This document shows positions 8,153 to 55,280 of a stretch of DNA of 55,280 nt, in pieces (the first letter of the stretch is position 1; each line of letters starts with the position of its first letter). The DNA comes from Slackia sp. (GTDB lineage: Bacteria; Actinomycetota; Coriobacteriia; Anaerosomatales; Anaerosomataceae). The stretch is taken from assembly GCA_020725885.1 (NCBI GenBank), contig DYEA01000005.1, positions 1 to 55,280 on the forward strand. Reading direction: 5' to 3'. A model generated the notes under the pieces. The model ran no database searches, was not told the DNA's origin, and worked only from the letters and a program-made list of their open reading frames with translations. Both the position numbers and the translations under genes were made by a program.

Positions 8153-8602
8153 TCAGCCCAGCACTTCCTCGAGGTGGAACCCGCGATCGAACGGGTCGCG
8201 GAACGCAACCCCCTCGATGGTCCTCCCATCCTGGAAGTCCTCCGAGAGCACCACGGGGACGCCGTGGACGAGAGCGGCCGCCCAGATTTGCGCATCGAAG
8301 TACGACAGGCCATGCTGCGCTACGCCGCGGACGGCCTCGTGAACGACGGCTGCGTCCACGCTGAGCACGTCGAAGATCTCAGCGAAATGCACGACCTGCC
8401 TTGCAGCGACCGCTGCCGTAAGGGGAACCGCGAACTTCCGGCTCACGACGACGAAGAACTCCCCGAGAACCTGCGTCGAGACGCATCCGGCCCCGGCAGC
8501 CGCTAGGCCTGCGACGACTGCGGTCGCTCTTGCGCGCTTTGCGGGCTCGTCGCCGTCGAACAGGTAGACCAGGACATTCGTGTCAACGAGCGCCGCGGCC
8601 AT
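8153..8602 (-). CDS. vapC: PIN-domain toxin, VapC type
   Basis: This 149-residue PIN-domain ribonuclease has the conserved acidic residues in order: Asp7 (VDTNV), Glu48 (LGEF), Asp103 (YFDAQIW) and a C-terminal acidic cluster 121-125 (EDFQD). These coordinate the metal ions that cleave RNA, usually tRNA or rRNA. Its start lies 20 bp inside the end of the antitoxin gene, the normal vapBC arrangement. All catalytic residues are present, so the toxin should be active. Confidence 0.88.
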   Translation of the reverse strand: MAAALVDTNVLVYLFDGDEPAKRARATAVVAGLAAAGAGCVSTQVLGEFFVVVSRKFAVPLTAAVAARQVVHFAEIFDVLSVDAAVVHEAVRGVAQHGLSYFDAQIWAAALVHGVPVVLSEDFQDGRTIEGVAFRDPFDRGFHLEEVLG

Positions 8603-8849
8603 GCGCGTCCTCGCGCGTCCAACGATGCCCGCCGCTGCCGACGCCGGCCTCGGCGGCCCGCTCGCTCGCCTCGAGCACGGACCGCCACGCTTCCGCTCGC
8701 AGGCGCTGCCGCTCCTGCTCAGCGAGCAACGCGTCGATCGCCTCGCGGATGAGGGCCGACTGCGACACCCCCATCTCGCGTGCCTTGGACGCCAAAGCGC
8801 GGTCCTGCTCCCGAGTGATGACGACCTGCTTGCGGACCATGCGCTCCAT
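8583..8849 (-). CDS. vapB: Ribbon-helix-helix antitoxin, VapB type
   Basis: This 88-residue protein has an N-terminal ribbon-helix-helix domain (residues ~5-45: RKQVVITREQ, then SQSALIREAIDALL). A Glu/Arg-rich helix and a disordered tail, which would bind the toxin, follow. Such proteins neutralise VapC and repress their own operon. It overlaps vapC by 20 bp. ATG 8849 is used; ATG 8840 is an alternative start. A TATACT hexamer about 60 bp upstream on this strand is a likely -10 element. Confidence 0.82.
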   Translation of the reverse strand: MERMVRKQVVITREQDRALASKAREMGVSQSALIREAIDALLAEQERQRLRAEAWRSVLEASERAAEAGVGSGGHRWTREDAHGRGAR

Positions 8850-8959
8850 GATGCGGCGTAGCTCCTACCGGTGCGTGAACGGTTCCTTCCCGACTATTAC
8901 ACACCAGTATACATACCGACCGCCCAGACCGATGCCCCGTGCGTTCCTCCTGCACAACC

Positions 8960-8995
8960 AGAGGGAGACGCCTGGGCAGCCCAGGCCGGCCCTCT
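8960..8995 (-). terminator. Hairpin at the end of the selD-yedF operon
   Basis: A perfect 7-bp inverted repeat with 3-nt loop (8970-8986) lies inside a second pairing of AGAGGG with CCCTCT (8960-8965 with 8990-8995). The outer arm overlaps the stop codon of the YedF-like gene. No T-run follows. Confidence 0.4.
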
Positions 8996-9332
8996 ACGCG
9001 ATCGTCACCACGTCGTCAGCGCGCATGAAGGCCGCCGCAGTGTCGTTCATGTTCCCGACCTCGCCGACGGCGAGCGAGTCCTTGAGCCCGTAGTAGTCGA
9101 GGCAGGTTCCGCACGACTTGACGGCCACGCCGTCCTCGGCGAGCAGCCGCAGTTCGTCGAGCGCCGGCGACCCTTCACACGCCAACCGCACGCCCGAGTT
9201 CATCAGCAGCACCGCGTCCGGTTTGGGCTCGGTGCGCGCGAGCGAGTACAGGAACGACGCCGCGAGCTTGCGCCCGAGCTCCTCGTCGCCCTGGCCGATC
9301 CTGTCGGTGCTGATGAACACGACCTTGCCCAT
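8994..9332 (-). CDS. yedF: DsrE/YedF-like selenium-metabolism protein
   Basis: This 112-residue protein starts at ATG 9332 with GGGAGGT upstream. It matches the C-terminal DsrE-like half of the YedF selenium-metabolism family: MGKVVFISTDRIGQGDEELG at the start, then LMNSGVRL, the cysteine pair SCGTCLDYYG, and GEVGNM. Most family members carry an N-terminal TusA-like domain, which is absent here, and the upstream reading frame belongs to selD. It lies 26 bp after selD on the same strand, as in many Sec-using bacteria. The proposed role, handling sulfur/selenium for SelD, rests on this gene association. Confidence 0.82.
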   Translation of the reverse strand: MGKVVFISTDRIGQGDEELGRKLAASFLYSLARTEPKPDAVLLMNSGVRLACEGSPALDELRLLAEDGVAVKSCGTCLDYYGLKDSLAVGEVGNMNDTAAAFMRADDVVTIA

Positions 9333-9358
9333 CGCGCGACCTCCCGCGTCCTCGTCGC

Positions 9359-10390
9359 CTACACGATGCGGACCGCTCCCGGGCGGCCCTCCACACACCG
9401 GCCGACAGCCACCGCATCTTCCCCGCGCACCGCCAGCGCCGCGAGCAGCGCATCCGCCTTCTCTTCCGCGACCGCCATCAGCAGCCCGCCCGACGTCTGC
9501 GGGTCCGCAAGCACGCCCTTCCAGTCGAACCCGGCCGGCCCCCAGTCCACCCACTCCTCCAGGAACGAGAGCACGTCTGCGGTACGCCCCGGCCGGACGC
9601 CTTGCCCCGCGTACTCGACGACGCCCGGCCACACCGGCACACGCTCCAGCTCGATCTCGACCGCCACGCCGCTGCCGAACGCCATCTCGCGCGCGTGGCC
9701 CGCAAGCCCGAACCCGGTGATGTCGGTGCCCGCGTGCACGCCGACTTCCTGCATCGCCTCGGCGGCGGCAGCGTTCAGGTGCGCCATGCTCTCGATGACT
9801 TCCGCCAGCGACTCCTCTGTCTCCAGCCCCTGCTTGAGCGCCGTGTTGAGGATGCCGACGCCGAGCCGCTTCGTGAGCACGAGCACGTCGCCTGGCCGCG
9901 CACCCACGTTGCGCACCACGCGGTCCGGATCCACCACGCCCATCACCGACAGCCCGTACTTCGGCTCCTTGTCGTCGATGGTGTGGCCACCGACGATCAC
10001 CGCGCCTGCTTCGCGCACCTTGTCAGCGCCGCCTTGAAGCACGCGCGCGGTCACCTCGGCCGGAAGCGAGCACGGCATCGCGAGCAGGTTCATCGCCGCA
10101 AGCGGCCTGCCGCCCATCGCGTAGATGTCCGAGAGCGCATTCGCCGCCGTGATGCGGCCGAAGTCGTACGGGTCGTCCACCATCGGCGTGAAGAAGTCGA
10201 CGGTGAGCAGCACGGCCGTCTCGCCAAGCCGATAGACGGCGGCGTCGTCCGACGTCTCGAACCCGACCATCAGGTCTTCGGAGCTGCCCGGCGCCATCTT
10301 CTCGAGCACGGCTGCGAGGTCGCCCGGACCCCACTTGGCAGCTCAACCGGACTTCGTCGACAGCTGCGTGAGGCGTATCGCAGGCTGCAT
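9359..10390 (-). CDS. selD: Selenide, water dikinase SelD, itself a selenoprotein (in-frame UGA at codon 16)
   Basis: SelD makes selenophosphate from selenide and ATP. An uninterrupted frame begins only at internal ATG 10309, but homology extends through an in-frame TGA at 10345-10343 to ATG 10390. The N terminus reads MQPAIRLTQLSTKSG, then U16, then AAKWGPGDL. This is the active-site position that is Cys or Sec in SelD, followed by the conserved Lys. Full length is 343 residues, normal for the family. Later signatures include VDFFTPMVDDPYDFGRI, GGHTIDD and DITGFGLAGH. A SECIS-like hairpin follows the UGA. Automated annotation would truncate the gene and lose the active site. It forms an operon with the YedF-like gene. 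Confidence 0.95.
10311..10342 (-). promoter_or_regulatory. Bacterial SECIS element of selD
   Basis: Directly 3' of the UGA, nucleotides +1 to +5 (GCTGC) pair with +28 to +32 (GCAGC). An inner 6-bp stem GGGGTC/GACCTC (+11 to +16 with +22 to +27, one G-U pair) closes a 5-nt loop CGGGC at +17 to +21. A hairpin at this distance from the UGA is what SelB recognises in bacteria. Confidence 0.8.
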
Positions 10391-43153: not shown

Positions 43154-45763
43154 TCAGCGCGCCGCCTCGTGCCGCACCGAGCGGATGCCGATCTCGTCGT
43201 CGATCAGATCGATGACCACCGTGTCGCCGTCCCGCACCTCGCCTGCCACGAGCGCCTTCGCGATGCGGTCCACGACCTCACGCTGGATGACGCGCTTCAG
43301 CGGACGGGCGCCATACACCGGGTCGAACCCGTCGAGCGCGATGCGCTCCAGCGCCGCCGGCTCGATCTCGAGCGTGATGCGCCGCTCAGCAAGCCGCTGC
43401 TTGACGCGCTCCAGCTGCAGCTCGGCGATCTCCGCGACCTGCTCCATCGTGAGCTGGTGGAACACCACGATGTCGTCGATGCGGTTCAAGAACTCCGGCC
43501 GGAACGTCTGGCGAAGCACCTCTTCCACCGCCGCCTTCATCTGCTCGTAGTCGCCGCTCTTCGCGAGCTCCGTGACGAACTGGCTGCCGACGTTGCTCGT
43601 CATGATGACGATGGCGTTGCGGAAGCTCACCGTGCGGCCCTGGCCGTCGGTCAAGCGCCCGTCGTCGAGCACCTGCAGAAGCACGTTGAACACGTCCGGG
43701 TGCGCCTTCTCGATCTCGTCGAGCAGCACGACGCTGTACGGACGCCGTCGCACCGCCTCGGTGAGCTGCCCGCCCTCCTCATAGCCGACGTAGCCCGGCG
43801 GCGCGCCGATCAGCCGCTGCACGCTGAACTTCTCCATGTACTCGCTCATGTCGATGCGCACCATGTTGCGCTCGTCGTCGAACAAGAACTCCGCAAGCGC
43901 GCGTGCGAGCTCGGTCTTGCCGACGCCGGTCGGGCCGAGGAACAGGAACGAGCCGAGCGGCCGGTTGGGGTCGGAAAGACCGGCTCTCGCCCGGCGGATG
44001 GCGTTCGCGACCGCGGCGATCGCCTCGTCTTGGCCGACCACGCGCTTGTGCAGCAGCTCCTCAAGGCGCACGAGCTTCTCCATCTCGCCTTCGAGGAGTT
44101 TTGAGACCGGCACGCCGGTCCACGAGCTCACCACCTCGGCGATCTCGGTCTCGGTGACCTCCTCTTTGAGCATCGCCTCGCCCGACTGCAGCTGCTTCAA
44201 GCGTTCGTCCGCTTCGGCAAGCCGCCGCTCGAGCTCAGGGATGCGGCCGTACCGGATCTCGGCCGCGCGCTGCAGGTCGCCGTCGCGCTCGGCCCGCTCG
44301 GACTCGACCTTCGCTTCGTCGAGCTCGGCCTTCAGGCGCTGCACCTCGGCGATGACGGCCTTCTCGCTCTCCCAGCGCGCCTTGAGGCCCGAGAGTTTCT
44401 CTTGCAGTTCGGCCATCTCAGCACGCAGCGCGTCGAGCCGCTCCTTGCTCGCCTCGTCCTTCTCCTTCATGAGCGCCTGCTCCTCGATCTGGAGCTGGCG
44501 GAGCTTGCGGTCGAGCTCGTCGATCTCGGTCGGCATCGAGTCGATCTCCATGCGCAGCCGGCTCGCCGCCTCGTCGATGAGGTCGATCGCTTTGTCCGGC
44601 AAGAAGCGGTCGGTGATGTAGCGGTCCGACAGCATCGCCGCGGCCACGATGGCGCCGTCGGTGATGCGCACGCCGTGATGCACCTCGTACTTCTCTTTCA
44701 AGCCGCGCAGGATCGCGATGGTGTCCTCCACCGTCGGCTCGCCCACGTACACCGGTTGGAAGCGGCGCTCGAGCGCCGCGTCCTTCTCCACGTGCTCGCG
44801 GTACTCGTCGAGCGTCGTGGCGCCGATGCAGTGGAGCTCGCCGCGCGCGAGCGCCGGCTTGAGCATGTTCGAAGCGTCCATCGCGCCTTCAGCCGCGCCG
44901 GCCCCGACGAGCGTGTGGAGCTCGTCGATGAACAGGATGATGCGGCCCTCGGCGTTCTGCACCTCGCGCAGCACTGCCTTGAGCCGGTCCTCGAACTCGC
45001 CGCGGTACTTCGCGCCAGCCACCATCGCGCCTAGGTCGAGCGCGACGATCTCCTTGTCCTTGAGCGTCGCCGGGACGTCGCCCGCGACGATGCGCTGCGC
45101 GAGCCCCTCGACGATGGCCGTCTTGCCGGTGCCTGGCTCGCCGATGAGCACCGGGTTGTTCTTCGTGCGCCGCGACAGCACCTGGATGACGCGGCGGATC
45201 TCGGCGTCGCGGCCGATCACCGGATCGAGCTTGCCCTCGCGCGCCGCCGCCGTCAGGTTGCGGCCGAACCGCTCGAGCGCCTGGAACTGCGCCTCGGGAT
45301 TCTGGTCGGTCACGCGCGCGCCCGCGCGCAGCTCCTCGATGGCGGCGAGCAACCGCGGGGCCGTCACGCCGTGCACGCTCAAGATGCGGCTCGCCTCGCC
45401 GTTCTCCTCGGCGATTCCGAGGAGCAGGTGCTCCGTCGACACGAACGCGTCTTTGAGCTTCTCGGCGTGCTTGAAGGCCGCGTTGAGCACGGTGCTCAAA
45501 CGCGGACCGATGCCCGCAGGGCCCGTCACGCCCGGCCCGGAGACCTTGGGCATCTTGGCGATCGCCGCCGAGACCTCGGCTTCCACGAGGTCGGGGTCGG
45601 CGCCGACTTTCTGCACGATCGGCCGGACGATGCCCTCGGCGGCGTCCAGGAGCGCCTTCAAGAGGTGCTCCGGCTCTATCGTTTGCGAGGAGGCGTCGTC
45701 GGCGATGCCTTGCGCCGCCTGCAGCGCCTCCTGCGCTTTGACTGTCAACTTGTCCAATCTCAT
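43154..45763 (-). CDS. clpB: ClpB disaggregase
   Basis: This 869-residue Hsp100 rescues aggregated proteins with DnaK. The N domain (1-145: [16 protein letters not shown]) is followed by AAA-1 with [18 protein letters not shown], the coiled-coil middle domain (~400-530, rich in Glu/Lys/Arg heptads) and AAA-2 with [47 protein letters not shown] is the second Walker B region. Length is standard. It is the last gene of the dnaK-grpE-dnaJ-hspR-clpB operon, 45 bp after hspR; this linkage is typical of Actinobacteria. Confidence 0.97.
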
Positions 45764-45808
45764 CTCACATCACTTCCTTGCGACGGCCAGGGTTTACCCG
45801 CCGCGTCT

Positions 45809-46219
45809 TCACCTGCAGTCGCTCCTGCGCACGATGCCGCCGCGCGGCACGTGCACGATGTCGGCGCGCATGCTCTGACGCACGCGCTGTATCTCCACGG
45901 CGAGCCGTCGTTCGGCCTGGCTCGCCTGCGCTCGGGCCGCGTCTAACTCGGCTTGCAGCCGAGCGATGCGGTCCTCCAACTCCAAGATCCGCACGACGCC
46001 CGCGAGGTTCACCCCTTCGTCCTGGGTCAGCCGCTGTATCAGCCTGAGACGCTCGATGTCAGCGTCTGAGTACAGACGCGTGTTGCCAGCCGAGCGCTTC
46101 GGCTTGATCAGGCGCTTGCGCTCGTAGATGCGAAGCGTCTGCGGGTGCATGCCCGCGAGCTGCGCGGCCACGCTGATCATGTACAGCGGCCGGTCCTTGC
46201 TGCTCCGCTGGCTCTTCAT
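45809..46219 (-). CDS. hspR: Heat-shock repressor HspR (MerR family)
   Basis: This 136-residue protein has a MerR-type winged helix: [28 protein letters not shown], then [21 protein letters not shown]-terminal coiled coil follows ([20 protein letters not shown]). HspR, with DnaK as co-repressor, represses heat-shock operons in Actinobacteria. It lies 19 bp after dnaJ and 45 bp before clpB. Probable targets in this window are the dnaK operon and hsp20, which share a promoter motif. Confidence 0.94.
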
Positions 46220-46238
46220 CGCTCGCCTCCCTATCTGC

Positions 46239-47363
46239 CTACTTGATGTGCGAACGCACGTCCTCGGACGACAGCCGCGCGAACTCCTCCAGCAGCTCGC
46301 GCTGCCGTGCCGAGAGCTTCGTCGGCACTTTCACGCGGATCTTCACCTTCAAGTCGCCGGTGCCCTTGCCCTTCAAGCGGGGCGCTCCCTTCCCAGGGAT
46401 CCGCAGCACCTTGCCGTCCTGCGTGCCGGCCGGGATCTTCAGCCGCACGCGCTCGCCCGCAGGCGTTGGAACCGTCACTTCGGTGCCGAGCGCCGCTTCC
46501 GCGATCGTCACCGGAAGCTCGAGCACCACGTCCGCGCCGTCACGCGAGAAGTACGCGTGCGGCTTGACGTGCGTCACGACGTACAGGTCGCCCGGCGGCC
46601 CGCCTGCGACGCCCGGCTCGCCTTTGCCTTTGAAGCGCAGCTTGCTGCCGTCGGTGACGCCCGCCGGGATGTTCACCGTCACCGGCTTCACGCGCGTCAC
46701 GGCGCCGCGGCCCTTGCACGTCGGGCACGGCTGCTCGACGACCGTGCCCTCGCCGCCGCACCGCGGGCAGGTGCGGGAGAACCCGAACAGCCCCTGGCCT
46801 TGCGTGACGTGGCCCGTGCCTTTGCAGGTCGGGCAGGTCGTGCGGCTCGTCCCGGGCTTCGCGCCAGTGCCGTGACAGGTCGCGCAGGTCTCATCGCGCC
46901 GGACGTCGACCTTCGTCGAGATGCCCCGCAACGCCTCGTCGAACGAGAGCGTCACGTCGTACTGGAGGTCGGCGCCTCGGCGAGCAGCGCTGCGCGCTCC
47001 CGTGCGGGCGCCGGCCGCCGCTCGGAAGCCGGAGAACAGGTCGCCGAAGATGTCGCCTAGATCCCCGATGTCGCCGACGTGCGTGTAGGTGAAGCCGCCC
47101 GGCCAGCCCGCGCTCCCGCCCGGAGCGCCCGCACCCGGCGGCACATTGCCACCGAAGTACTGGCCGAACTGGTCGTACTGCTTGCGCTTCTCCGGGTCGG
47201 ACAGGACCTCGTACGCCTCGTTGATCTCCTTGAAGCGCTCCTCGCTGCCGCCGGCGTCGGGGTGGTGCTTGCGCGCCTGCTTCCGGAAGGCCTTCTTGAT
47301 CTCCTCCGGGGTGGCGTTCCGGCTGACGCCCAGTATGTCGTAGTAGTTCTTGGCGGCAGCCAT
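46239..47363 (-). CDS. dnaJ: Chaperone DnaJ
   Basis: This 374-residue Hsp40 has a J domain (1-70) with the HPD motif in [12 protein letters not shown] Gly-rich linker (~75-115) follows, then the zinc-binding domain with four CxxCxGxG repeats ([32 protein letters not shown]). The substrate-binding C-terminal domains end the protein. It stimulates DnaK ATPase. It lies 3 bp after grpE. Confidence 0.96.
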
Positions 47364-47366
47364 CGC

Positions 47367-48011
47367 CTACTCCTTCGCCGACGGCCCTCCGGTGCTGACG
47401 ACGACCATCGCAGGCCGAACCACTTTGCCCGCGAGCTCGTACCCCTTCTGGTAGACCTCCACCACGGTGCCTTCCGGGACGCTTTCGTCTTCTCGCTGCC
47501 CGACCGCTTGGTGCACGGCCGGGTCGAAGGGCTGGCCGAAGGGGTCGATGACCTCGACCCCTTCCTTCTTAAGCACGTCGAGCATCTGCCGGTGCACCAT
47601 CTCCACGCCTTCGAGCAGCTGCTTGAGGTCGCCACCCGCCGTCACGTGGTCGATGGCGCGCTCCAGGTTGTCGAGCACCGGCAGGATCTCGGCGATGATT
47701 CGCTCGCCCGCGCGAGCGGCCATCTCAGCCTGGTCACGCGCGACGCGCTTGCGGTAGTTCTCGAACTCCGCCTTGACGCGCTGCGCGGTCTCCAGGTGCT
47801 CGGCCGCCTCCTGGCGCGCCGCTTCGAGCTCTGCTTGCAGCTGGTCGCCACGCAGCTCGAGCTCGGCTCCCAGGTCCGTCTCCAACTCAGGGTCGACGGG
47901 AGACTCCGCGGCGGAAGCGCCCCCGACGGGCGCCTCCGCAGGGCGCTCTTCCCGAGGACCGCGCCCGGAGGGGGCGCTTCCGCCGCTCACGGTGCGCTTC
48001 CGCTCGACCAT
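47367..48011 (-). CDS. grpE: Nucleotide exchange factor GrpE
   Basis: This 214-residue protein has a low-complexity N terminus (1-55), a long coiled coil (~60-110: ELRGDQLQAELEAARQEAAEHLETAQRVKAEFENYRKR) and the beta-wing domain (GVEVIDPFGQPFDPAVHQAV, VVEVYQKGYELAGKVVRPAMV). It releases ADP from DnaK. It starts 2 bp after the dnaK stop. Confidence 0.96.
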   Translation of the reverse strand: MVERKRTVSGGSAPSGRGPREERPAEAPVGGASAAESPVDPELETDLGAELELRGDQLQAELEAARQEAAEHLETAQRVKAEFENYRKRVARDQAEMAARAGERIIAEILPVLDNLERAIDHVTAGGDLKQLLEGVEMVHRQMLDVLKKEGVEVIDPFGQPFDPAVHQAVGQREDESVPEGTVVEVYQKGYELAGKVVRPAMVVVSTGGPSAKE

Positions 48012-48013
48012 GG

Positions 48014-49915
<1,902 letters not shown>

Positions 49916-51987: not shown

Positions 51988-52686
51988 CTACTCTCTCCCT
52001 GCTTGGTTCGGCGTGGCTCCCACGAGCACCGCACGCGCAACGATACGGTACCGCGCGCTATACGGCGGGTGGCACGCAGTAAGCGTCAGCGAAGGCTCTT
52101 CGGTCGTTGCGAAGACCTCGGTCTGGTCTGGACGCACCACGAAGACCCGCTCCACTTCATAGGTGTACGTCGTGTGCGGCGCGACAAGCGAGATCCTGTC
52201 GCCCCGCTCGAGGCGGTCGATGCGGCGGAACGGAGCGCCGTACGTCGTCCTGTGACCTGAGATGCCGCAGTTGCCGGTGGGGCCCGGCACGTCCGTGTAC
52301 GGCGCCCAACCGGGGCCGAGCCGCAGATCGCGAGGCTCGACCCCCTTGACCACCACAGCGTCCAGACCGATCGCCTCGCAGACGATCGTCGCGAACGGCT
52401 GACCCGGCTTCAGGGCGTCCCAGTACGCTTTGTCGCGCTCCCACGCGCTGAAGTCCAAAGCGGCAGTCGCTGACGGCGCTGGCGCCGTCAGCGCGGGCAT
52501 CTCCGAGCGCAACGCGGCCTGCGAGCGTGCGGCAAGGCCGTCCGTGACGCCTTGGTAGGCGAGCAGACCGAGCGCAAGCCCGAAGAACCAGTCGCTGGCC
52601 AGCCTCACGACCGAACGCCGCCAGGCCGACGAGCGGCTGCTCGGCTGAGAAGCCGCTGCGGATCCCTGCGCGTCGCTGTCGTTCAT
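51988..52686 (-). CDS. Sortase (class D/E-like transpeptidase)
   Basis: This 232-residue membrane-bound Cys transpeptidase has an N-terminal helix (~32-48) that anchors it with the active site outside. The sortase barrel (~95-225) includes His145 in GISGHRTTYGAPF, Cys205 in LTLTACHPP and an Arg in YSARYRIVARA. These form the His-Cys-Arg triad. It should cleave LPxTG-type signals and join proteins to the wall. A candidate substrate with LPFTG is encoded at 53613-55280. It heads an operon with the epimerase and UDG-like genes. Confidence 0.92.
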   Translation of the reverse strand: MNDSDAQGSAAASQPSSRSSAWRRSVVRLASDWFFGLALGLLAYQGVTDGLAARSQAALRSEMPALTAPAPSATAALDFSAWERDKAYWDALKPGQPFATIVCEAIGLDAVVVKGVEPRDLRLGPGWAPYTDVPGPTGNCGISGHRTTYGAPFRRIDRLERGDRISLVAPHTTYTYEVERVFVVRPDQTEVFATTEEPSLTLTACHPPYSARYRIVARAVLVGATPNQAGRE

Positions 52687-52763
52687 GGTCGCTCCCGGCT
52701 AAAGCCGCCGCTCCACGCTGCCGATAACGCAAGTGTACGGCGATTGAGAAGCGAATACCGGGC

Positions 52764-52860
52764 GAACCCCGAAAAAGGCACCTCCGCCGAAAGGCGGACG
52801 ACGCAAAGCCACGGGTCTACAGGAGCGCCGCTCCCAGGACAGCCGGGCTGCCGAGGCAGA
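52764..52860 (+). promoter_or_regulatory. Cyclic di-GMP-I (GEMM) riboswitch
   Basis: The 5' leader of the metalloprotease gene has the GEMM-I core. It shows AAAAAGGCACC, a stem with GAAA tetraloop (TCCGCC/GGCGGA, 52793-52808), the near-invariant GACGCAAAGCCACGGG (52798-52815), then a second hairpin region and the family 3' part GGACAGCCGGGCTGCCG (52837-52853). These match the c-di-GMP-I aptamer. A strong terminator hairpin follows, so c-di-GMP probably controls read-through into 52953-53528. Whether binding turns expression on or off is not certain from sequence. Confidence 0.9.
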
Positions 52861-52875
52861 CGCGCTGGCACACAG

Positions 52876-52923
52876 CCGGCCCGAACCCTCAAGAGGCCTT
52901 CTCGGGGGGTTCGGGCCGGTTTC
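52876..52923 (+). terminator. Riboswitch expression-platform terminator
   Basis: A perfect 13-bp stem (52876-52888 with 52907-52919) is followed by TTTC, between the aptamer and the start codon at 52953. CGAACCC of the left arm also occurs at 52764-52770 at the 5' edge of the aptamer. Either copy can pair with the right arm GGGTTCG, offering an alternative fold. Confidence 0.75.
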
Positions 52924-52952
52924 GCGCTCTGGCTCGAAAAGGGGCGTTCGAG

Positions 52953-53528
52953 ATGAAGGCGATCACGAAGAGCCGCACACGGCTCATGACCCTCACGGCG
53001 GTCGCAGCCGCCGCCATCGTGGCGGCGACGGTGGCCGTCCTCCCGGGCGACAACGCGTCCGCCCGCCTGGCGATCGGAACGACGCTCGAGGCCGCACAGC
53101 CGGCTGTGCCGACAGTGGCGTACAGCGACGACGCGCTCGACCTCGGCGCTGCCGCCAAGCAGCCGACGCCGGTCGCGGCGCCTCAGCCGGCAAGTGCCGC
53201 AGCCCCGAAGAGGACCGCCTCCGCTCCGGCAGCCAAGCCCAAGACCGTCAGCACCAAGCCCACTGCGACGAGCACCGACGAGCTCGCCGAGGCGCGCCGG
53301 ATCCTGGCGGGCCTGATCGCGAAGTACCCGATCCTCAAGGGCACGACGGTGAGCTTCGGCGACACCAAGGGCTATCAGGCGATCTGCTACTACAAGTCCG
53401 GGCGGATCGTCATCAACCCGAATCACACGGCGAGCCTCTCCCGGATCTTGAACCACGAGGTGTGGCACATCATCGACTGGCGTGACAACGGCCGCATCGA
53501 CTGGGGCGAGAACGTCCCGCCGCGGTAA
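52953..53528 (+). CDS. Small secreted HExxH putative zinc metalloprotease under c-di-GMP riboswitch control
   Basis: This 191-residue protein has a signal peptide or N-terminal anchor (hydrophobic ~12-30) and an Ala/Pro/Thr/Lys-rich linker (~45-108). A compact C-terminal domain of ~80 residues follows, with NHEVWH (His168, Glu169, His172) followed by DWRDNGRIDWGE, where an Asp or Glu could be the third zinc ligand. I know no named family for it. The transcript begins with a c-di-GMP riboswitch and terminator. It lies between the sortase gene and a sortase-anchored protein gene, both on the other strand. Confidence 0.75.
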   Translation: MKAITKSRTRLMTLTAVAAAAIVAATVAVLPGDNASARLAIGTTLEAAQPAVPTVAYSDDALDLGAAAKQPTPVAAPQPASAAAPKRTASAPAAKPKTVSTKPTATSTDELAEARRILAGLIAKYPILKGTTVSFGDTKGYQAICYYKSGRIVINPNHTASLSRILNHEVWHIIDWRDNGRIDWGENVPPR

Positions 53529-53562
53529 GCACCAGCAGAAACGACCTTCGCCTGAAGATGCG

Positions 53563-53592
53563 AGCGGGGGCCCGGACGGGCCCCCGCTCTTT
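53563..53592. terminator. Bidirectional terminator between metalloprotease and surface-protein genes
   Basis: A perfect 11-bp GC-rich stem (53563-53573 with 53578-53588, loop GGAC) is followed by CTTTC. The two flanking genes converge on it. Confidence 0.75.
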
Positions 53593-53612
53593 CGGCGCCG
53601 AAGCGCCTGCCC

Positions 53613-55280
53613 CTACTCCTGAGCCTTCTTGCGGAGCACGACCGCAGCGGCGGCTGCAGCGAGGACCGCGAGCAGGACCAGGAAGCCATTGCTGCCAGTG
53701 AACGGCAGGAACGGCTCTTCGACCGTCACGCGGACCGTCCACGAGGACTCGTGGCCGCCCGGATTGATGACCGCGACGTTGCGCAGCACCGTCGTGCCTT
53801 CCGGCATGTCCTCGGAGATGCGCATCGTGTAGGTGATGGTCCGGGACTCGCCCGGCCCGAGCGGCACCGTGTCGATCCACACGATGGTGCCATCGACCAC
53901 CGTGCCGCCTGCCGTGTCGACAGGAGTCATGTACCGCTCGTCGTAGTCGTCCACGATGCGGACCGACTCGATGATACCGTCGCCGATGTTGGAGTACGTG
54001 AGCGTGTACGTGACCAGGTCTCCCGGCTCCGCGGTCGACTTGTCTGCACTCTTGACGATGTCGGTATCGGTGAACGGCAGGAACTCCTCTTGGTTGCCGA
54101 AGTCGAGGTCCGTCAGGGCGGTGCCGTTCGTCACCACGAACGTGCCATCCGGCGCGGCCGTCTGCGTCCAACCCTCCTGCTGCTCTTCGGCGACGTAGTA
54201 GGTCCCGGGGAGCAGCCCGGCGAACGAGTACGCACCGCCTTCGCCGGTCACCGTGGTGTCGTACAGAGCGAACCCAGGCGCCGGGTCAGGGACTGCAGCG
54301 GGCTGCATGCCGTCACCGCTCGACATACGGTACAGCGCGATCGTCCAACCGGGCAGACCGACCTCGCCCGGCGCGTCCCACACGCCGTTGCCGTCGTCGT
54401 CGGAGAACTTGTGGCCGGAGACGCTCGCGCTGTACGTGAACGCGTTGGTGGTATCGCCCTCGAGGGTCTCGCCCTCGGTGATTCCGAGCACGATCTCCTC
54501 GCCGTCCTTCTCGGCGTACCACGTCACCTCGCCGATCTCGTACGGATGCTCGACGTCGATGGCGGCGCTGTACGGGCCTGAGCCGACGAGGTCGAGCCGG
54601 ATGGGCTCGCCATTGACCGTCGTCTCGACGAAGAACTTCGCTCCCGCCGGAGGCGCGTCGAACGTGAGCTCGAACGTCTTGACGTACATGACCTTGTGGT
54701 TGCCGAAGTCGGCGGCCTCGATGGCGGTGCCGCTCTCGACGACGAAGTCGCCCTCGGGAGCGTCAGTCATGCTCCAGCCTGGCTGGCCGACCTCCTCCAC
54801 CCGATACGTCCCGGGCAGCAGACCGCTGAATCCGTACCAGCCACCCTCGCCGGTGACGGTCTCGGCGACCAGCGTCCACGCGGACGGGAGGTCCAGCGGC
54901 GCGAGTCCGTTCGGAGACGGGATGGCGAGCGTCAGCCGGTACAGCCGGATCGTCCATCCTGCGAGTCCGCTTTCGCCCTCGTCCCACATGCCGTTGCCGT
55001 CGAGGTCCTCGTACTTGTGGCCCGAGATCGAGCCGGGGACGTGCTCCCAGGCATTCGTCTTCGGGCCGGTGAGGGTCTCAGGGCCGAGGACGGGCGAGAG
55101 CGGGACCTCCTCTGTGCCTGCGCGCGCGAAGAACCGCCACGAGGCGATCGTCGTGCCGTAGGGCAGCACGACAGAGGCGGTGAACACGCCCGGCGCGGCG
55201 GACGGCGAAAGCGCGAGGTCGTGGGTGGCCGCGCCGATGGTGTAGCGGACGAAGTAGCCCGTCGCGGCCGGCATGCCGGA
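53613..55280 (-). CDS. Sortase-anchored surface protein with SdrD-B-like and DUF11 domains (5' end outside window)
   Basis: The frame is open to the window edge, so the N terminus is missing; ATG 55274 is probably internal. The visible part has two SdrD B-like repeats, each starting SGHKxxDxDGNGxWD and including a LPGTYxVEE- or LPGTYYVAEE-type strand (near residues 83-190 and 283-385). Beta-rich linkers with YSAAIDVEHPYEIG lie between them. A DUF11-type domain follows (KSADKSTAEPGDLVTYTLTY). The C terminus is a complete sorting signal: LPFTG, ~20 hydrophobic residues and RKKAQE. It should be linked to the wall by the sortase at 51988-52686. Pro-containing linkers could be protease sites. Confidence 0.92.
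   Translation of the reverse strand, partial: SGMPAATGYFVRYTIGAATHDLALSPSAAPGVFTASVVLPYGTTIASWRFFARAGTEEVPLSPVLGPETLTGPKTNAWEHVPGSISGHKYEDLDGNGMWDEGESGLAGWTIRLYRLTLAIPSPNGLAPLDLPSAWTLVAETVTGEGGWYGFSGLLPGTYRVEEVGQPGWSMTDAPEGDFVVESGTAIEAADFGNHKVMYVKTFELTFDAPPAGAKFFVETTVNGEPIRLDLVGSGPYSAAIDVEHPYEIGEVTWYAEKDGEEIVLGITEGETLEGDTTNAFTYSASVSGHKFSDDDGNGVWDAPGEVGLPGWTIALYRMSSGDGMQPAAVPDPAPGFALYDTTVTGEGGAYSFAGLLPGTYYVAEEQQEGWTQTAAPDGTFVVTNGTALTDLDFGNQEEFLPFTDTDIVKSADKSTAEPGDLVTYTLTYSNIGDGIIESVRIVDDYDERYMTPVDTAGGTVVDGTIVWIDTVPLGPGESRTITYTMRISEDMPEGTTVLRNVAVINPGGHESSWTVRVTVEEPFLPFTGSNGFLVLLAVLAAAAAAVVLRKKAQE

Follow-up and report, generated by a model that had tools for sequence, protein, structure and literature searches.

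A c-di-GMP-I riboswitch, a predicted minigluzincin-type secreted protease, a sortase and an LPFTG protein in one conserved actinobacterial cluster

In contig DYEA01000005.1 of Slackia sp. (assembly GCA_020725885.1), a sortase gene, a class-I cyclic diguanosine monophosphate (c-di-GMP-I) switch, a gene for a secreted protease and a gene for an LPFTG-anchored surface protein are packed into one 4-kb cluster. The stretch analysed, hereafter the window, is the entire contig of 55,280 bases and belongs to a 1.83-Mb genome. The genome holds a single sortase match, a single LPFTG-pattern match and a single c-di-GMP-I switch, and all three fall within the cluster; 12 GGDEF matches elsewhere in the analysis of the genome suggest a source of c-di-GMP. 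The arrangement recurs across dozens of genomes, far beyond what chance would produce. We read the cluster, with confidence that is about evenly balanced, as a dedicated c-di-GMP-controlled surface-protein module in which the secreted protease acts on the LPFTG protein. The genome's only sortase would anchor its only LPFTG protein, the class-I riboswitch would set the protease supply at translation, and the protease, a predicted zinc enzyme of minigluzincin type, would trim or release the anchored protein, most likely near its anchor.

Composition and conservation of the cluster

The initial annotation described a GEMM-I aptamer before the protease gene, and a covariance-model search bears this out, with 69.3 bits for RF01051 (cut-off 35) and 62.8 bits for RF03167 (cut-off 59). 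The latter, c-di-GMP-I-GGC, is the name that cmscan retains. We take 'GGC' to mean G replacing A at position 47, judging from the consensus of the RF03167 model. On that understanding the variant reading was rejected, as the consensus GACGCGAA carries G at position 47 and the window GACGCAAA carries A, which is also the base found there in all 58 switches read. RF03167 apparently also picks up canonical aptamers of actinobacteria, its defining base appearing to be absent at window positions 52768-52856. G20, A47 and C92, the ligand-contacting bases of the Vc2 structure, are present in the window and in all 42 aligned leaders; because of this, the aptamer is of the canonical class-I type and is expected to recognise c-di-GMP.

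The annotation had also placed a sortase on one side of the protease gene and an LPFTG-anchored SdrD_B/DUF11 protein on the other, and both identifications hold. The sortase carries a PF04203 domain; its nearest subfamily, class E, scores 107 bits, under the NCBIfam cut-off of 160. The surface protein has SdrD_B and DUF11 domains and ends in LPFTG, a hydrophobic stretch and a basic tail (LPFTG...VVLRKKAQE).

We examined conservation in a class sample of 398 genomes and in the window's order (apparently Anaerosomatales/OPB41), which comprised 69 genomes. The catalytic domain of the protease occurs in 50 of the 398 class genomes, every one in this order, and the c-di-GMP-I aptamer family in 56 of the 69. 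The switch lies upstream on the same strand, 340-540 bases before the domain, in 45 of 55 protease copies, and 45 of the order's 63 c-di-GMP-I switches serve the protease gene. At nearly every locus the sortase gene is divergent at a distance of ~1 kb from the protease gene, and the LPFTG gene is convergent, ending ~0.5 kb downstream. Among copies judged for both switch and LPxTG neighbour, 43 had both, two had the switch only, none had the LPxTG neighbour only and seven had neither (Fisher p = 2.7e-7, a value that is not a true probability because the genomes are related). The linkage in relatives on which the initial annotation had staked its proposal is therefore found across the order, and beyond it.

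This pattern bears on a different account, in which the protease is tied to the sortase locus but acts on cell-wall or matrix proteins or on the sortase itself rather than on the LPFTG protein next to it. We consider it somewhat unlikely, given that every LPxTG neighbour judged for both comes with the switch and that the genome has a single LPFTG match. It would fit the order's other c-di-GMP-I switches, which (genes named by eye) stand before exported glycoside hydrolases, parallel beta-helix proteins and subtilases, so that the switch might mark exported enzymes generally, and it would fit second protease copies in genomes G028, G051 and G071, which sit apart from sortase and switch. Further observations count against the LPFTG protein as the substrate, or against the weight of the linkage: synteny inside one order is partly inherited, so the counts overstate independent events; two switch-bearing copies (loci L098 and L103) have no LPxTG neighbour; and the switchless copies L093, L094, L100 and L102 keep the sortase without an LPFTG neighbour, so that the protease may serve a different function at these loci. 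These four loci also retain an epimerase gene. At L103 (genome G031) the protease is flanked by two sortases, with no LPxTG protein seen nearby, and at L101 (genome G091, 8433-10250) switch and protease are tandemly duplicated, both copies being ~65-70% identical to the window domain.

Outside the order, a phylum search recovered 10 further protease homologues in other families, six of which are preceded by a c-di-GMP-I aptamer. LPYTG/LPFTG proteins lie near L191, L193, L196 and L200 and a sortase near L196 and L197, with a differing gene order. At L194, L195, L198 and L199, where no switch was detected, no LPxTG protein or sortase neighbour was found in the sequence available. Because the linkage of switch, protease and LPxTG protein or sortase survives rearranged gene orders, it argues for a shared function beyond inherited order alone. 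Additionally, a short-peptide-pattern scan of all genomes returned 42 loci, the named records being almost all Actinomycetota/Coriobacteriia, with one Aeromicrobium sp.

Table 1 Features of the cluster in the window
Feature	Position	Strand	Remarks
Sortase	51988..52686	-	Divergent from protease gene; PF04203 E 1.2e-28; genome's only sortase match
Helix A 5' strand, leader GCGAATACCGG	52751..52761	+	Pairs with segment directly behind hairpin T; covariation
c-di-GMP-I (GEMM-I) aptamer	52767..52856	+	RF01051 69.3 bits, RF03167 62.8 bits; G20/A47/C92
CCCCG at aptamer 5' end	within 52767..52856	+	Would serve as P1 strand and anti-Shine-Dalgarno strand
Helix O 5' strand (aptamer 3' flank)	52852..52865	+	Own-species pairing better than cross-species, 36/42
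Hairpin T, 13 bp, weak TTTCG tail	52876..52919	+	Stem covariation
Helix A 3' strand CCGGTTTCGC	52916..52925	+	Covariation, duplex comparison
Helix O 3' strand, directly 5' of Shine-Dalgarno sequence	52924..52936	+	Duplex comparison
Shine-Dalgarno AGGGG and flank (helix S 3' strand, GGGGCGTTCG)	52940..52950	+	Predicted partner of leader CGGGCG/CCCC when P1 is open
Secreted 191-aa minigluzincin-like metalloprotease (predicted)	52953..53528	+	Signal peptide, Ala/Pro/Thr-rich linker, C-terminal domain
Protease catalytic domain	53265..53525	+	Conserved across order; HEVWH at 53454-53468
LPFTG-anchored SdrD_B/DUF11 surface protein	53613..55280	-	Convergent with protease gene; 5' end cut by contig end
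LPFTG sorting motif	53695..53708	-	Sole match to pattern in genome
Internal sorting-like motif EEFLPFT-D	54066..54080	-	124 residues before sorting motif; candidate protease site

Near the module, clpB, a gene for a MerR-type regulator, dnaJ, grpE and dnaK occupy 43154-49915 on the sortase strand.

The secreted protease and its candidate site

The 191-residue exported HEVWH protein of the initial annotation corresponds to an open reading frame that has a typical export signal; its HEVWH occupies residues 168-172. The full protein had no family match in Pfam or NCBIfam, and the protease profile gave no meaningful match when run against PDB sequences. The ATLF/PPEP profile likewise found no match among 39 members of the window protease's own family to E 1, nor in the window protein to E 10, which agrees with the earlier view that the protease lacks a recognisable PPEP domain. 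At the level of structure, an AlphaFold2 model of the 87-aa domain (predicted local distance difference test, pLDDT, of 87) has its best matches in the minigluzincins selecase and proabylysin/projannalysin (Foldseek E 4.4e-3, probability 1.0, template modelling score TM about 0.57, ~20% identity). In the structural ranking, minigluzincins reach Z 8.2, as compared with Z about 6 for anthrax lethal factor; selecase and proabylysin lead both structural rankings, with a modest margin over other zincins. PPEP chains are not among the structural matches listed, which is no proof of a different fold. The domain is thus predicted from the model to be a small gluzincin-like protein with a minigluzincin-type fold, outside the families in the searched libraries.

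In the aligned domain, H70, E71, H74, D77, W86, E88 and P91 do not vary among 39 sequences, and HExxH is also kept in the distant homologues read. Of the zinc site that the annotation had proposed to look for by structure prediction, the model places the HExxH helix confidently. E88 is probably the third zinc ligand; to be set against this assignment is that E88, invariant in the order, falls in the low-confidence tail of the model. The small size of the domain and a third ligand that is no more than probable would suit a zincin-like domain that lacks proteolytic activity and binds the surface protein without cutting it, but with HExxH retained across the order and in distant homologues we judge this very improbable.

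The surface proteins themselves offer a candidate site for an active protease. Most LPFTG neighbours share the C-terminus (E/D)PFLPFTG, and the pattern [LIVM]P[FY]T recurs internally in 29 of 49 of them, as compared with 4.1 expected from shuffles. The internal motif mostly reads EEFLPFT(D/E) and precedes the sorting motif by about 124-149 residues; in an alternative position, seen also in other lineages, the distance is 7-23 residues. The repeat, FLPFT(D/E/P), occurs in the window and in the neighbours at L063, L070, L077, L085, L193, L196 and L200; often a single DUF11 domain separates it from the true sorting motif. At its fifth position the internal motif usually has D, E or P in place of G, and it is therefore not a normal sorting site. 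It could be a recognition site for the protease, or it could be left over from an older sorting signal behind which domains were added. Cleavage and release of the LPFTG protein by the protease is a plausible inference. We hold only speculatively, as a rather unlikely extension, that there is an unnamed family of riboswitch-run secreted minigluzincins in several actinobacterial lineages, which would recognise FLPFT(D/E/P) as counter-enzymes of a dedicated sortase and be turned on by c-di-GMP.

Expression platform and the sign of control

Covariation was scanned over all column pairs of an alignment of the 42 leaders. The scan recovers the aptamer stems, hairpin T behind the aptamer, and helix A (for example, UA/CG at alignment columns 17-208 and CG/AU at 13-213), and pair counts show helices A and T backed by changes on both sides. 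Two further helices emerged: helix O, between the aptamer 3' flank and the segment before the Shine-Dalgarno (SD) sequence, and helix S, between the leader plus the P1 5' strand and the SD. Own-species duplex energy beats cross-species energy in 40/42 leaders for helix A, 39/42 for T and 36/42 each for S and O, as compared with 19-26/42 for controls. Since helix A crosses both O and S, it is probably the alternative to them.

Folding was consistent with such an exchange. In the free ensemble, SD-leader pairing is seen in 36 of the 42 sequences, vs 8 with P1 enforced. Enforcement raises SD exposure by more than 0.3 in 19 leaders, lowers it in one, and takes it from 0.29 to 0.83 in the window. 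The forced-pair check failed in many species, so that in these figures the outer P1 pairs may not be exactly those intended. Taken with the covariation, this points, with a modest degree of confidence, to a translational ON switch. Without ligand, the leader and the P1 CCCC would pair with the SD (helix S) and helix O would form, yielding little protease; with c-di-GMP, P1 would close, the leader would pair behind the hairpin (helix A) and the SD would be exposed. Two findings weaken the case for an ON sign. Helix S is well paired, yet its columns are nearly invariant, the SD being constrained anyway, and in some relatives folding allows inner P1 pairs and helix S to coexist, which leaves the polarity less than firm.

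The same module might work with the opposite sign: c-di-GMP would shut the protease off, P1 would favour the hairpin or an SD-hiding structure, and the surface protein would stay on the cell at high c-di-GMP. We regard this as possible but doubtful. Functional class-I switches of Clostridioides difficile are all OFF, zmpI included (PMC6366702), and the hairpin with its short TTT behind the window aptamer would suit termination. The initial annotation had indeed placed a terminator there. The strong 13-bp hairpin stands, but it is followed only by TTTCG in the window, a terminator scan found no match on the + strand of the window, and most relatives lack a U-tract and carry GATGTGC in its place (L075 and L067 have TTTTT), on which grounds an intrinsic-terminator mechanism has no support outside a few relatives. 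An OFF sign also sits poorly with the effect of P1 enforcement on the SD, and hairpin T is present in both predicted states. An antiterminator pairing of 5' CGAACCCC with hairpin GGGGTTCG is possible in the window; the alignment pointed instead to helices A and S.

Some support for an OFF sign comes from other class-I switches of the order. At L116, L119, L121 and L122 the SD lies inside the P1 3' strand before exported glycoside hydrolases, suggesting direct translational OFF switches; from these leaders we draw that the order may use one aptamer class with both signs. At L111, the gene behind a c-di-GMP-I switch encodes an HD-GYP/GAF/GGDEF-like protein, which may feed back on c-di-GMP itself.

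Relation to known systems

C. difficile controls zmpI (PPEP-1) by a class-I OFF switch and the sortase substrates cut by this protease by class-II ON switches (PMC6366702); PPEP-1 (CD2830) cuts the sortase-anchored CD2831 and CD3246 near the anchor (PMC6366702, PMC11460543). The parallel drawn in the initial annotation to this c-di-GMP-I-controlled protease is apt, zmpI and CD2831 being the counterparts (PMC6366702), in that both systems have a secreted HExxH protease whose mRNA carries a class-I c-di-GMP riboswitch. The window module differs in that 1) its protease is of another family, with no ATLF/PPEP sequence match and a minigluzincin-like predicted fold, 2) the sortase gene adjoins as well, 3) the platform looks translational and is predicted to be ON, whereas zmpI is OFF, and 4) the LPFTG gene has no second c-di-GMP-I switch, there being one in the genome. 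We consider the module C. difficile-like in parts list and layout; because of the different protease family, the single c-di-GMP-I switch and the opposite predicted sign, we do not file it as a member of that system.

Other comparisons are partial. With selecase, proabylysin and projannalysin (PDB 4qhf-4qhj, 4jiu, 4jix) the 87-aa domain shares the predicted fold and the HExxH helix; unlike these, the window protein comes from a bacterium, has a signal peptide for secretion followed by a linker, and is riboswitch-controlled. The Bc2-cap switch of Bacillus thuringiensis is likewise of class I, serves a surface system and is ON, the sign predicted in the window; in contrast, it involves no protease and controls the adhesin itself, by transcription read-through (PMC4933901, PMC6366702). 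We found no description of the module in open-access papers, most subscription papers lying outside the search.

Overall, the module looks like an independently evolved counterpart of the C. difficile adhesion switch. If so, c-di-GMP would have been linked at least twice to a protease encoded next to a sortase-anchored protein, here through another protease family and perhaps with the sign reversed. For an order of mostly uncultured bacteria, known chiefly through metagenomes, the module would also supply a circuit that regulates what the cell surface displays, and as a compact system of one sortase, one substrate and one protease, its logic would be directly testable.

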